Shown here in pieces: positions 42,774-47,533 of a stretch of DNA of 64,000 bases; positions within the stretch are counted from its first letter, which is position 1; every line of letters begins with the position of its first letter. Made by a program: the position numbers and the translations under genes. The notes under the pieces were generated by a model. The model did no database searches and was not told the origin of the DNA. It saw only the letters and a program-made list of their open reading frames with translations. The stretch comes from an uncultured Paracoccaceae bacterium (GTDB taxonomy: Bacteria; Pseudomonadota; Alphaproteobacteria; Rhodobacterales; Rhodobacteraceae), in NCBI GenBank assembly GCA_947501555.1, contig CANMWG010000002.1, positions 382,224 to 446,223 of the forward strand, written 5' to 3'.

Positions 42774-42875
42774 ATGGATGGTATTGAGCCAGCAGTCTTT
42801 GCACATTTGGGCAAAGATGGGTTTACAAGTAAACTGGTTTTCCTCCTCACGCCGAACAAAAGAGCCCAGCCATGA
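42774..42875 (+). CDS. 33-residue leader ORF coupled to the Crp/Fnr gene
   Basis: ATG 42774 follows TAGGAG by seven bases and gives MDGIEPAVFAHLGKDGFTSK... (33 residues), ending in a TGA that overlaps the ATG of the regulator as ATGA. Translation of this leader would feed ribosomes straight into the regulator. The peptide has no known family. A real leader peptide or a mis-set start of a longer regulator are the alternatives; the frames differ, so it cannot be a simple N-terminal extension. Confidence 0.6.
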   Translation: MDGIEPAVFAHLGKDGFTSKLVFLLTPNKRAQP

Positions 42876-43552
42876 AGGCCGAAGAGCTTCTAGGCTACGG
42901 GTTGCCCTTGTTCGAAGGGCTCAAGCCTGGTGATCTCAAGGGCATTCCGCTCCGGGTGACCGAACAGAAATTGGAAGCTTGGCAAACGATCTTTGGTCAA
43001 GAAGACAATTCTTACGATCTGTACTTCTTGCTGCAAGGGTCACTACTAGCAGTCTTCTGGACAACGCAAGGGCGGGAAATCGTCTTTTCTCGTTTCCCTG
43101 TCGGGGCCTATTTTGGTGAACTCGCGGCTTTTGACGGCACGCCAAGGTCTCTCGCGGTGATTGCGAAAACAAATGCCAAGGTGCTGTCAGTTAAGCGCGA
43201 AACCTTCTTACAGCTCTTCAATGAAGTCCCGATCTTGCGGGAAAGAATCACAAAGGAATTGGTCCACCGCATCCGAACGCTGACAGATCGAAACATGGAA
43301 ATGACGACACTCACCGTTGAACAACGTGTCGGTACATATTTGCTTCGATTGGCTGCCGAGAATGGGCAGCTCCGGACTGGGGCTATCATCGAGAATGCAC
43401 CAACACACGCCGAAATCGCAGGATCAATCGGAGCAAACCGAGAGATGGTCAGCCGGTCAATCAGCAAATTGACCAAGCGGGGCGTGATCAAAGCAGCACG
43501 ACAACGGATCGAAATTACAGATCCCGAAGCACTGTCCAACGAACTGGTCTAA
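42872..43552 (+). CDS. Crp/Fnr family transcriptional regulator
   Basis: A 226-residue regulator with a cyclic-nucleotide-binding-like beta-roll (residues 10-130, including PVGAYFGELAAFDGTPRSLAVIA, which resembles the phosphate-binding cassette of CRP) and a winged HTH near the C-terminus (THAEIAGSIGANREMVSRSISKLTKRGVI). There is no cluster of N-terminal cysteines as in FNR, so an iron-sulphur sensor is unlikely; the cassette suggests a cNMP or a related ligand. The start overlaps the stop of the short leader ORF. Confidence 0.9.
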   Translation: MKAEELLGYGLPLFEGLKPGDLKGIPLRVTEQKLEAWQTIFGQEDNSYDLYFLLQGSLLAVFWTTQGREIVFSRFPVGAYFGELAAFDGTPRSLAVIAKTNAKVLSVKRETFLQLFNEVPILRERITKELVHRIRTLTDRNMEMTTLTVEQRVGTYLLRLAAENGQLRTGAIIENAPTHAEIAGSIGANREMVSRSISKLTKRGVIKAARQRIEITDPEALSNELV

Positions 43553-45416: not shown

Positions 45417-46067
45417 CTAATCATCCCCAAAATCCACCAATCCCTGACGGCCTGCCTCTGTCAGATCATAAACCCCCCGCGACACACGGCGGAACCAGCC
45501 GTAGTGATCATCGGCCATGATCCGTGTGGCATCAGGCACTTCAGCCCACTCTTTGACTTTCGCCCCGCGCGACGGGCCATGCACAACCAAAAACCGTGCA
45601 CAGCGCAACGCATCTTGCCGGTATCCTGTCACAAGCCCATGCCGGGTCGCGCCGCCTGCGTTAGGATCCCCTTGCAACCGATCAAATGCGCGCAACAATC
45701 GGGTGGCTTTCTTTTTGGATTTGCGCGGCGCATAGGGGCCGGGATCAGCCAGAACCTCCACATGCCCGTCGCGCAAACGGACGGTCATCACACCCAAACC
45801 AACGCGGCGCGCCAATTTCACGTTTGCCTTCAACGCCTTGGTCTTCCCACCCGCAGGCACGGCCACATAAACCAGGTCGGTCACCGCCAAACGCTCAATC
45901 CCCTGATGAAACAAGGCCAATGAAAATCCCAGCTTCAGTTCGACCACCAGCACATCATCCTCGCGGCGGGCCACCACATCGGCCGCACCCACCTCGCCCT
46001 TCACGTCATAGCCTTGGCGCTGCAGATAGGCTTTGACGGGGGGATAAAGATCAGCCTCACGGGCCAT
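45417..46067 (-). CDS. DUF2161 protein, PD-(D/E)xK-like
   Basis: A 216-residue protein starting MAREADLYPPVKAYLQRQGYDVKGEVGAADVVARREDDVLVVELKLGF. The GxxDVV...VELK pattern near residues 28-46 is a PD-(D/E)xK nuclease-like core, as expected for DUF2161 proteins, which are annotated as putative phosphodiesterases. The second half has a basic segment (PRKSKKKATRLLRAFDRLQGD) and winged-helix-like WFRRVSRGVYDLTEAG. ATG 46067 is chosen over the open frame from 46100 for this reason. Convergent with the TraB gene across the palindromes. Confidence 0.85.
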   Translation of the reverse strand: MAREADLYPPVKAYLQRQGYDVKGEVGAADVVARREDDVLVVELKLGFSLALFHQGIERLAVTDLVYVAVPAGGKTKALKANVKLARRVGLGVMTVRLRDGHVEVLADPGPYAPRKSKKKATRLLRAFDRLQGDPNAGGATRHGLVTGYRQDALRCARFLVVHGPSRGAKVKEWAEVPDATRIMADDHYGWFRRVSRGVYDLTEAGRQGLVDFGDD

Positions 46068-46150
46068 GTGGACACTCCTTGCGGGGCCACCCAAATGCAA
46101 ATCTCGGGGCTGTGCAAGCCCTGACGCGTGACGCGACAGGGCCCTTTTTG

Positions 46151-46336
46151 TCAGCGCCCGCCCTGACGACCAGGAAAGCGGGGCGGACGTTTGCCGCCAC
46201 GGTGTTGACGGTTCAGCCCGGTCGGCAGTTCGCGCGGACGACCGCCCACTGGGTCAGGCCGTCCAGCGCGGCGGTTTTTCGGTTCAGACGGCGATTTTGG
46301 CCCCGCCTTGCGGGGTTTTGGTGTTCTATGGGGCAT
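46151..46336 (-). CDS. Small basic Pro/Arg/Gly-rich protein, 61 residues
   Basis: ATG 46336 follows AAAGGTG by six bases and gives MPHRTPKPRKAGPKSPSEPK, ending RGGKRPPRFPGRQGGR. It has almost no hydrophobic core and resembles nucleic-acid-binding tails. On the same strand about 66-143 bases upstream lie two tandem mini-ORFs and then a good promoter, so this gene may be the main product of that transcript. A chance frame in G+C-rich DNA remains possible. Confidence 0.5.
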   Translation of the reverse strand: MPHRTPKPRKAGPKSPSEPKNRRAGRPDPVGGRPRELPTGLNRQHRGGKRPPRFPGRQGGR

Positions 46337-46401
46337 AAGTTGCACCTTTACTTGAAATGATCAGGTGGCCGGATGGCCAGAATTATCGCCCAAAGGCGGG
46401 A

Positions 46402-46416
46402 TCAGAACTGGTCCAT
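46402..46416 (-). CDS. Mini-ORF MDQF, second tandem copy
   Basis: ATG GAC CAG TTC TGA with AAGGAG ten bases before it. The stretch from the Shine-Dalgarno through ATGGACCAG repeats that of the copy 63 bases upstream. Real translation is not shown by sequence alone. Confidence 0.4.
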   Translation of the reverse strand: MDQF

Positions 46417-46461
46417 TTTCAGGGTGCTCCTTCAAAAAGGGATCGGGTGAGGGTGAGCAGG

Positions 46462-46479
46462 TTACGCGTGCTGGTCCAT
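46462..46479 (-). CDS. Mini-ORF MDQHA, first tandem copy
   Basis: ATG GAC CAG CAC GCG TAA with AAAAGGAGGA ten bases before it, about 30 bases after the -10 box of the candidate promoter at 46508-46537. It is the copy closest to the promoter. See the finding on the tandem pair. Confidence 0.4.
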   Translation of the reverse strand: MDQHA

Positions 46480-46507
46480 TGTCTGAGTCCTCCTTTTGAA
46501 TGGGCTC

Positions 46508-46537
46508 ATAATACCACATCCGCCTGAACCTCGTCAA
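46508..46537 (-). promoter_or_regulatory. Candidate sigma-70 promoter for the mini-ORF transcript
   Basis: On the minus strand TTGACG (46537-46532) and TATTAT (46513-46508) are 18 bases apart. Both boxes are near consensus, the best such pair I found in the window. The predicted transcript would carry both MDQ mini-ORFs and then the 61-residue basic protein. It is divergent from the pyrophosphatase gene at 46616. Confidence 0.65.
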
Positions 46538-46615
46538 ACCCACGGGGTGGGGTGACAGCCCCGGCGGACACTCATATATACGGGGCAAATCCTGCATCCA
46601 GTGAAAGTGACACGC

Positions 46616-47533
46616 ATGACAACCCTCGTTTTTGGCCATAAGTCCCCCGACACAGACAGCACCGGATCACCATTGATCTGGGAATGGTTCCTGAACCACA
46701 CCGGCCACAATGCAAAAGCCGCTTTGCTTGGCACACCCAACACCGAAGCCGCCTTTGTGGCCAAGCGTTGGGGGTTTGAGCTACCGCAGATCATCGCGGA
46801 CGTCGACAACGACCAAGCTTGCGTGATCGTCGACACCAACAACCCGGCCGAGTTGCCTGGCAACATCAACAACGCCAATGTGCTGGCGGTCATCGATCAC
46901 CACAAACTGACTGGCGGCTTGGAAACCAAAAACCCGATCAACATCACCATCCGGCCTTTGGCCTGCACCGCGACGATCATGCACCAGATGATGGGGGGGC
47001 AAGCTGACGAGATGCCAGAGGGGATCAAAGGGTTGATGCTGTCCTGCATCCTGTCCGACACGCTAGCTTTCCGGTCACCCACGACAACGCAAATGGACAA
47101 GGATCTGGCCGAGACGCTGGCCAAGGAACTCAAAATCGATATCGAAGCCTATGCGACCGAAATGTTCGATGCAAAGTCCGACATCTCTGCCTTCTCAGAC
47201 GCAGAACTTCTGCGGATGGACAGCAAAGAATACGCCGTCGACGGCAAAAAATTCCGCGTCTCGGTACTGGAAACCACATCGCCCAAGATCGTGCTGGATC
47301 GCAAGGCATCGCTGATGGAGACCATGCCGAAGGTCGCCAAGGAAGACAAAGTCGATCAGGTCCTGCTTTTCGTCATCGATATCCTTAAGGAAGAGGCGAC
47401 GATGCTGATCCCCAACGATCTGACCAAAACCGTGGCGGAAAAATCATTCGACGCGACCGTCGAAGGCGACAGTGTGGTGCTGCCCGGCGTCATGAGCCGC
47501 AAAAAACAGATCATCCCCGCATTAAAGGTCTGA
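46616..47533 (+). CDS. ppaC: Manganese-dependent inorganic pyrophosphatase (family II)
   Basis: A 305-residue DHH-family pyrophosphatase, which hydrolyses PPi in the cytosol. Metal-binding motifs are FGHKSPDTDSTGSP at the start, VDTNNPAEL (DTN) and the DHH motif in VIDHHKLTGGL. The second domain contains SDTLAFRSPTTTQMD and ends VMSRKKQIIPAL, the family's SRKKQ substrate motif. ATG 46616 (MTTLVFGHKSPD) is chosen over the frame open from 46601. A hairpin follows 4 bases after the stop. Confidence 0.94.
   Translation: MTTLVFGHKSPDTDSTGSPLIWEWFLNHTGHNAKAALLGTPNTEAAFVAKRWGFELPQIIADVDNDQACVIVDTNNPAELPGNINNANVLAVIDHHKLTGGLETKNPINITIRPLACTATIMHQMMGGQADEMPEGIKGLMLSCILSDTLAFRSPTTTQMDKDLAETLAKELKIDIEAYATEMFDAKSDISAFSDAELLRMDSKEYAVDGKKFRVSVLETTSPKIVLDRKASLMETMPKVAKEDKVDQVLLFVIDILKEEATMLIPNDLTKTVAEKSFDATVEGDSVVLPGVMSRKKQIIPALKV

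Follow-up and report, generated by a model that had tools for sequence, protein, structure and literature searches.

Two tandem five-codon reading frames ahead of a small basic protein gene in Rhodobacteraceae: a candidate leader for translational attenuation

Several bacterial leaders are described in which a short upstream open reading frame (uORF) acts on the gene behind it, and the closest are given here. In Salmonella, the 8-codon uORF mgtQ of the mgtC-mgtB intergenic region has a strong Shine-Dalgarno (SD) sequence and Asp as its second codon (Asp2); when mgtQ is translated, a sequestered ribosome-binding site becomes free (PMC8092293). For the toiL uORF of E. coli topAI, pairing along its length with the main ribosome-binding site is proposed, a helix that would be opened by ribosomes stalling at one or another point of the uORF; tetracycline stalls them at the start codon (PMC12121999). 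Among antibiotic-resistance leaders, PMC12121999 cites one for tetracycline resistance whose uORF has four codons. In S. meliloti, a 29-codon uORF of duf1127-1, which encodes a small arginine-rich protein, is proposed to monitor ribosome availability (PMC12218461). Many described bacterial uORF switches depend on a particular stalling codon or peptide. Is there a leader that does without them? Here we analyse a window of 64,000 nucleotides (nt) from an uncultured Paracoccaceae bacterium (contig CANMWG010000002.1, assembly GCA_947501555.1, positions 382,224 to 446,223), on whose minus strand two SD-led mini-ORFs stand ahead of an open reading frame (ORF) for a small basic protein. All coordinates below are those of the window. 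The best single reading of this unit is a uORF-dependent translational attenuator that would read ribosome loading or dwell, not codons; we put its probability at roughly 0.55, the mechanism being a proposal. We are highly confident that the unit is a real, lineage-restricted, cis-acting leader without earlier description in the open-licence literature searched: none was found there, the available part of PMC2864571 included, and many subscription papers lie outside that literature.

Read along the minus strand, the order is a sigma-70-like promoter, mini-ORF1, mini-ORF2 and the basic ORF of 61 codons. The -35 element is GTTTGAC at 46533-46539; it overlaps the TTGACG (46537-46532) marked by the first-pass annotation, which is 18 bases from the -10 element TATTAT at 46513-46508. 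The first SD (SD1) is AGGAGG at 46489-46494, or AAGGAG if it is read at 46495-46490, and is followed by 10 nt and ATGGACCAG. Mini-ORF1 (46479-46462) encodes MDQHA, from the ATG at 46479-46477 to the TAA at 46464-46462. The second SD (SD2), AAGGAG at 46432-46427, is again followed by 10 nt and ATGGACCAG, and mini-ORF2 (46416-46402) encodes MDQF in four codons, with the ATG at 46416-46414, 63 bases from the first, and the TGA at 46404-46402. The third SD (SD3), AAGGTGCA at 46341-46348, was read from the sequence and the alignment; it leads the basic ORF (46336-46151), whose 61 amino acids run from MPHRTPKPRKAG to RFPGRQGGR and which has homologues in 43 loci. Promoter, both SD blocks, spacings, the peptides MDQHA and MDQF and the basic ORF at 46151-46336 had all been reported before, and re-reading the sequence reproduced them exactly. 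A block pattern that specifies 15 of 25 bases matches the window exactly at two places only, the two mini-ORFs; with up to three mismatches there are 5 matches against 1.44 expected, and 2 of 100 shuffles reach 5. The tandem blocks are real and far from chance. Judged from the promoter and the spacing, the interval is the 5' leader of what would be a single short messenger RNA (mRNA) for the small basic protein.

Which part of the blocks is under selection? The 43 loci together contain 86 mini-ORFs, of which 79 are exactly five codons long and 78 have Asp as codon 2 (38 of mini-ORF1 and 40 of mini-ORF2), written as GAC or GAT. The start is ATG in 82 and GTG in 4, and TAA, TGA and TAG are all in use as stops. 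In contrast to these constant features, the nine bases after codon 2 make 64 distinct words among the 86 frames, which bears out the earlier view that the mini-ORFs are not explained by the peptides they encode. The exact word ATGGACCAG, part of the blocks as first described, is not what is kept; kept are an SD, about 10 nt, ATG-GAY, three variable codons and a stop. Among the 43 loci, the four-codon MDQF itself occurs only in this window and in locus L002. Spacing is looser, with 60-97 nt between the two mini-ORF starts and 67-97 nt from the second to the start of the basic ORF, and neither the sequence nor the length of the linker between the mini-ORFs is constant. Upstream, each base of AGGAGG in SD1 is kept in 28-31 of 32 loci. 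The promoter had been called near-consensus: it is present as read, and TTTGAC of the -35 element is invariant in 16 of 16 aligned loci, but the -10 element varies among them, with TAnnnT in most. The comparison with relatives proposed in the first-pass annotation did not refute its view: the blocks neither vary freely in close relatives nor give way to a longer ORF that alone is kept. Start and stop codons being exchanged at constant length amid drifting codons suggests, on evolutionary evidence, selection for translation and not for a peptide; the exchanges between ATG and GTG and among TAA, TGA and TAG, with the frame length kept, are evolutionary signs that the mini-ORFs may be translated. 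An amino-acid operon attenuator of the trpL type was rejected, since the mini-ORFs have no run of codons for a regulated amino acid and, with 64 different nine-base words after codon 2 in 86 frames, only Asp2 is common. In L185 mini-ORF2 is open for 118 codons with hairpin A (described below) kept; this assembly is fragmented, so error or decay is possible.

The association was approached from the protein side as well. A profile of the basic protein, without the leader, reached 22 loci in a one-genome-per-species collection (Yoonia, Loktanella, Roseobacter sp. CCS2, Rhodobacteraceae bacterium HLUCCA08 and uncultured records), 12 of them already known from the DNA search and 10 new, and both SD-led mini-ORFs stand upstream in 22 of 22. 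Short SD-bearing ORFs ahead of the gene that they would control are found in these loci and in the rest of the 43. The whole set was made up of 28 loci from DNA or protein similarity, 6 from patterns or synteny with the mini-ORFs as target, and 9 from a covariance model (R1). Besides the own genus it spans 17 further genera sampled within Rhodobacteraceae, the records of L042 and L045 not being placed in a genus. At the DNA level the interval gave matches in 21 of 60 genomes, none of them outside the own genus. Loci L001-L016, the own locus included, carry the unit, and L020-L023 are short matches elsewhere. In L017-L019, of the same genus, the starts of both flanking genes are kept, and both mini-ORFs and the basic ORF are missing; left of the promoter, L017 retains GTTTGAC and L018 GTTTGAA.

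Other searches set the limits of this distribution. In the own genus the mini-ORF pattern matched 28 of 56 genomes. Twenty-four of these matches are the unit (L001-L016, L028, L030, L034, L036, L039, L040, L043 and L084), and the other four (G462, G471, G016 and G029) are single blocks with two mismatches, those of G462 and G016 lying inside other genes. The unit of L084 (genome G020) is divergent and sits at a different place in the genome, with no ppaC, the usual divergent neighbour, within the fetched flank; the unit may move or survive alone. The exact tandem pattern occurs in 2 of 388 family genomes and is too strict as a census, and protein profiles reach closer members only (5 of 388 family genomes at E below 1e-10). 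Profile matches were obtained in 29 of 394 and 22 of 388 genomes, and only G000, G015, G308, G391 and G139 were counted as the unit; the remaining matches of the 394-genome search had no mini-ORF pair in the scanned loci and were set aside. The gene of the downstream neighbour, a DUF2161 protein, is present in 97 of 159 family genomes, and the DNA upstream of it was read in 90 of the 97 (30 loci, own included, and 60 others). This reading added L125, L126 and L184, as well as L185 with its broken mini-ORF2, and an automatic scan for mini-ORF pairs there gave 3 matches against 0 in reversed and complemented copies. At L122, between the ppaC side and DUF2161, there is an apparently decayed mini-ORF1 in which ACGGAC stands for ATGGAC, without an SD and downstream of a TTTGAC that is kept, a possible fossil of the unit.

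Model R1 covers SD2 to +36 of the basic ORF and does not include mini-ORF1. At E <= 0.05 it matched 21 of 382 family genomes: 18 matches are the unit (9 known and 9 new), L229 and L230 proved false on reading, and G178 was left unread. All nine new loci have a short ORF1 led by an SD; eight of these frames are five codons long and that of L224 eleven, and seven have Asp2. Note that single SD-led short ORFs also occur by chance near these loci (four others in the same listing), so that the weight of the nine lies in their constant place, length and Asp2. R1 misses L125 even at E 1; across the wider class it matched 1 of 106 genomes, the own genome only. By a motif test ppaC adjoins the unit in 41 of 43 loci, L003 and L084 failing, although in L003 the start of ppaC is visible in the alignment.

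The basic ORF is by its substitution pattern a real coding sequence, because the ratio of nonsynonymous to synonymous substitution rates (dN/dS) lies between 0.09 and 0.23 in every one of the 10 pairs compared, a sign of purifying selection. Its products begin with MP, are rich in Lys, Arg and Pro (Lys+Arg 19-34% across the 43 loci) and in most loci end in a PG[RK]xxGR-like motif; in L050 the frame continues past the GGR end to 77 codons. The window protein belongs to no Pfam or NCBIfam family. With its profile, no match was found in the PDB up to E 10. Pfam assigned no family to seven divergent homologues and gave a single weak match for 16 close ones (E 0.029, to a family other than DUF1127), and PHROGs gave weak single matches only (E 0.037 and 0.84). 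A small basic RNA-binding protein of the DUF1127 or CcaF1 type was considered and rejected, as neither the window protein nor the relatives examined have a DUF1127 match in Pfam. AlphaFold2 predicts no secondary structure (mean predicted local distance difference test score 67.6, predicted template modelling score 0.16), and the protein is probably disordered.

How could translation of a mini-ORF act on this gene? The evidence points to an RNA domain on the minus strand. Its long helix, P1, has a 5' strand at 46408-46427 (the GCACC of the SD2 tail and the mini-ORF2 start region) and a 3' strand at 46342-46364, ahead of and including SD3. Hairpin A (CGCC-TTTG-GGCG, 46387-46398) begins at +19 from the mini-ORF2 start; hairpin B (TGGCC-ATCC-GGCCA) follows at 46366-46379; and hairpin C (CCCCG-CAAGG-CGGGG, 46301-46315) lies within the basic ORF, beginning at +22 from its ATG. 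Stems were counted in 41 loci, the near-duplicates L010 and L048 being left out. Hairpin A, as a stem of at least 4 pairs beginning at +15 to +23 of the mini-ORF2 start, is present in 39 of the 41 (misses L221 and L223), mostly at +19, against a mean of 19.2 loci and a maximum of 26 in 200 shuffles. For hairpin C, a stem begins at +19 to +26 of the basic ATG in 40 loci (miss L226), mostly at +23, the mean of 200 shuffles being 11.0 and the maximum 19. The two sides of both stems change in concert: CGCC/GGCG, CCCCG/CGGGG, GACCC/GGGTC and ACGC/GCGT in A, and CCCCG/CGGGG, CCACC/GGTGG and TTCCGC/GCGGAA in C, the latter inside coding sequence with differing amino acids. Hairpin B is missing in L004, L005, L007 and L028, and in A6, an alignment of 36 of the 43 loci, 4 of its 4 pairs are changed on both sides.

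P1 was examined by a swap test, in which the pairing of each locus with its own partner is compared with swapped pairing. For mini-ORF2 and the stretch before SD3, own pairing is the better, with z -3.2 in the 41 loci (12 of 20000 permutations) and -2.9 in 26 diverged representatives (44 of 20000); for the SD2 tail and SD3 the values are -4.1 (0 of 20000) and -2.9 (38 of 20000). Six other region pairs per set gave z from -0.3 to +2.2, and mini-ORF1 found no pairing partner. In A6, 18 of 30 pairs are changed on both sides, and the double-changed cells number 72 against 22.3 in shuffles (0 of 500 reach 72) and at most 27 in slid controls. Covariation supports an RNA domain in which the sequence around the mini-ORF2 start is paired with that at and before the main SD. 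A leader for the basic protein was one of the roles first offered for the mini-ORFs, and it is strengthened by the 22 protein-found loci and by this pairing, which links mini-ORF2 to the ribosome-binding site of the basic gene.

The translational attenuator would then work as follows. The initiation region of mini-ORF2 would pair with the bases ahead of the main SD, in most cases with the SD as well, and hairpins A and B would lie in between. Under normal loading and quick exit of ribosomes from mini-ORF2, P1 would re-form and the basic gene would be mostly shut; a longer stay would hold P1 open and leave the main SD free. Slow formation of the first peptide bond, slow termination or recycling, or inhibited initiation complexes could each prolong the stay. 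Because a five-codon frame lets the ribosome cover the helix strand from start to stop, the leader may read initiation, dwell or recycling and not the supply of one amino acid. Mini-ORF1, at the extreme 5' end, might determine how ribosomes load or how stable the transcript is; since it lacks a partner in the swap tests, the idea that it acts as a structural switch is unsupported. The data suggest that what switches the basic gene is translation itself and not the peptide made.

Several results weigh against this attenuator. Six loci (L084, L119, L125, L126, L184 and L185) were found by looking for mini-ORFs and are not independent evidence for them. The frame length has exceptions, mini-ORF1 having five codons in 40 of 43 loci (otherwise 6, 11 and 12) and mini-ORF2 in 39 (otherwise 4, 4 and 9, with the stop lost in L185). 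The unit is dispensable, since L017-L019 lack it between the same two neighbours. The A6 alignment was fitted to the structure model. With 23 close sequences RNAalifold did not choose P1 (covariation term 0.27) and instead joined SD3 to the main start region (AGGTGCA to ATGCCCC); given this predicted pairing, SD3 might stay closed even when P1 opens. The swap test lends the local pairing no support (z -0.05 and -0.3). In the close set P1 and the hairpins have 4 double-changed pairs, equalled by 182 of 500 shuffles. Since RNAalifold chose local pairs there, the claim for P1 rests on the diverged loci and the swap test; pairing of the main ribosome-binding site with the uORF region is seen by swap test and covariation and is weak in the close set alone. 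In the folding model, with a ribosome on mini-ORF2, opening SD3 becomes cheaper by a mean of 0.51 kcal/mol, with relief above 1 kcal/mol in 11 of 34 loci and a raised cost in some; control blocks give 0.20 for the linker, 0.31 for the stretch from mini-ORF2 to the main SD and -0.19 for mini-ORF1. The folding energies favour an attenuation mechanism only weakly.

Other explanations were weighed against the same data. Rho-dependent or coupled transcription attenuation, by which mini-ORF translation would decide whether RNA polymerase passes into the basic ORF, is unlikely. Its appeal lies in the nearest alphaproteobacterial precedent found, the S. meliloti duf1127 leader, for which this mechanism is proposed and which also controls a small arginine-rich protein (PMC12218461), and in the mini-ORF linker, variable in sequence and length as a Rho loading stretch might be. 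However, the covarying pairs between mini-ORF2 and the main SD region fit control of translation initiation better, and by eye, with no formal scan, there is no uridine-rich intrinsic terminator between mini-ORF2 and the basic ORF. We likewise give little credence to autogenous feedback, in which the basic protein would bind hairpin A, B or C and shut off its own translation, with the mini-ORFs tuning the freedom to fold. The Lys- and Arg-rich product, predicted without secondary structure, and the GC-rich hairpins with changing stems around both start sites would suit it, but protein and hairpin loops differ between genera, and RNA binding is putative.

Less likely again is a stabiliser or loading platform, in which ribosomes on mini-ORF1, near the 5' end, would shield the short mRNA from RNases and keep a supply of ribosomes close by, and mini-ORF2 would pass ribosomes on to the basic ORF by reinitiation. 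By the usual promoter spacing a start point is expected downstream of the -10 element, and SD1 lies only about 6-8 nt past it; the strong conservation of AGGAGG in SD1 and the missing pairing partner of mini-ORF1 fit as well. This account leaves P1 and the five-codon mini-ORF1 of 40 loci unexplained, however, and the 67-97 nt from mini-ORF2 to the main ATG are long for simple reinitiation. A trans-acting small RNA, or a decoy for the 30S subunit or its anti-SD, is very improbable: two near-perfect SDs do lie close together at the predicted 5' end, but start, stop and five-codon length, kept in 79 of 86 frames, would be needless for SD pairing alone, and in the 43 loci there follows a basic ORF with the low dN/dS given above. 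The independent small RNA or anti-SD sponge of the first-pass annotation found no particular support. Every pair found is accompanied by a basic ORF, a weak argument given that most searches started from that ORF or its leader; as a whole, the interpretation in that annotation is partly supported.

Some features around the unit should be mentioned. Directly 3' of the basic ORF lies a terminator-like GCCCTG...CAGGGC (46118-46142, minus strand), followed by TT only, and GC-rich hairpins 3' of the stop were seen by eye in relatives. The divergent neighbour ppaC (46601-47533, plus strand) encodes a manganese-dependent inorganic pyrophosphatase (NF003877, PF01368, PF02833), and the downstream neighbour (45417-46067, minus strand) is the DUF2161 protein (PF09929, E 1.5e-38). 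Ahead of ppaC a GTATAT...TGTCACCCC stretch at 46541-46600 is kept, and because it is also present in L017-L019, which lack the unit, it is probably part of the ppaC promoter. Rfam 15 gave 0 matches in the window at gathering score and nothing credible in 46040-46620, where the only matches (E 4.2 and 7) are on the opposite strand. Farther away, the ORF at 42872-43552 (plus strand) has by eye the look of a CRP/FNR-type regulator, a candidate only.

What would the attenuator mean, if true? It would be a natural sensor of ribosome loading or dwell, acting on a small-protein family absent from the libraries searched. The variation across genera amounts to a natural peptide-scrambling experiment, in which the start, Asp2, the frame length, the stop and the RNA structure are retained and the other codons change. 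Two minimal frames without a conserved peptide suggest sensing of loading or dwell rather than of codons. A tentative extension, held at less than even odds, is a codon-blind ribosome gauge, in which the two five-codon uORFs would be parking places that measure loading and stay through start and stop. The fixed distance of hairpins from two start codons (about +19, and +21 to +23) might be part of it; these positions adjoin the leading edge of an initiating ribosome. The output would go to a lineage-specific basic protein, possibly itself acting on RNA or ribosomes. The work also illustrates how architecture can serve to find even a tiny leader.

How does this locus compare with the described systems? 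With mgtQ it would share the logic that translation of a uORF frees the main ribosome-binding site. The difference is that mgtQ is one uORF, with alternative stem-loops within an operon and a Mg2+ transporter as target, whereas here two five-codon uORFs lie in a 5' leader and the target is a small basic protein; the two are likened by architecture. With toiL the likeness is a helix that joins uORF and main ribosome-binding site, but toiL is one uORF with sequence-specific stalls, and here the frames are minimal and conservation of the peptide ends at Met-Asp. The S. meliloti duf1127-1 leader resembles ours in its alphaproteobacterial host, a uORF near the 5' end, a small arginine-rich product and the proposed sensing of ribosome availability; it differs in having one long uORF and transcription attenuation with C-rich codons, and the basic protein of our locus does not match DUF1127. 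Antibiotic-resistance leaders have a similarly minimal uORF, presumably read through ribosomes that halt at its start, but their target is a resistance gene. By this analogy the anatomy of the leader matches that of uORF-dependent translational attenuators of the mgtQ, toiL and erm type, of which it would be a variation with two minimal frames and no conserved peptide.
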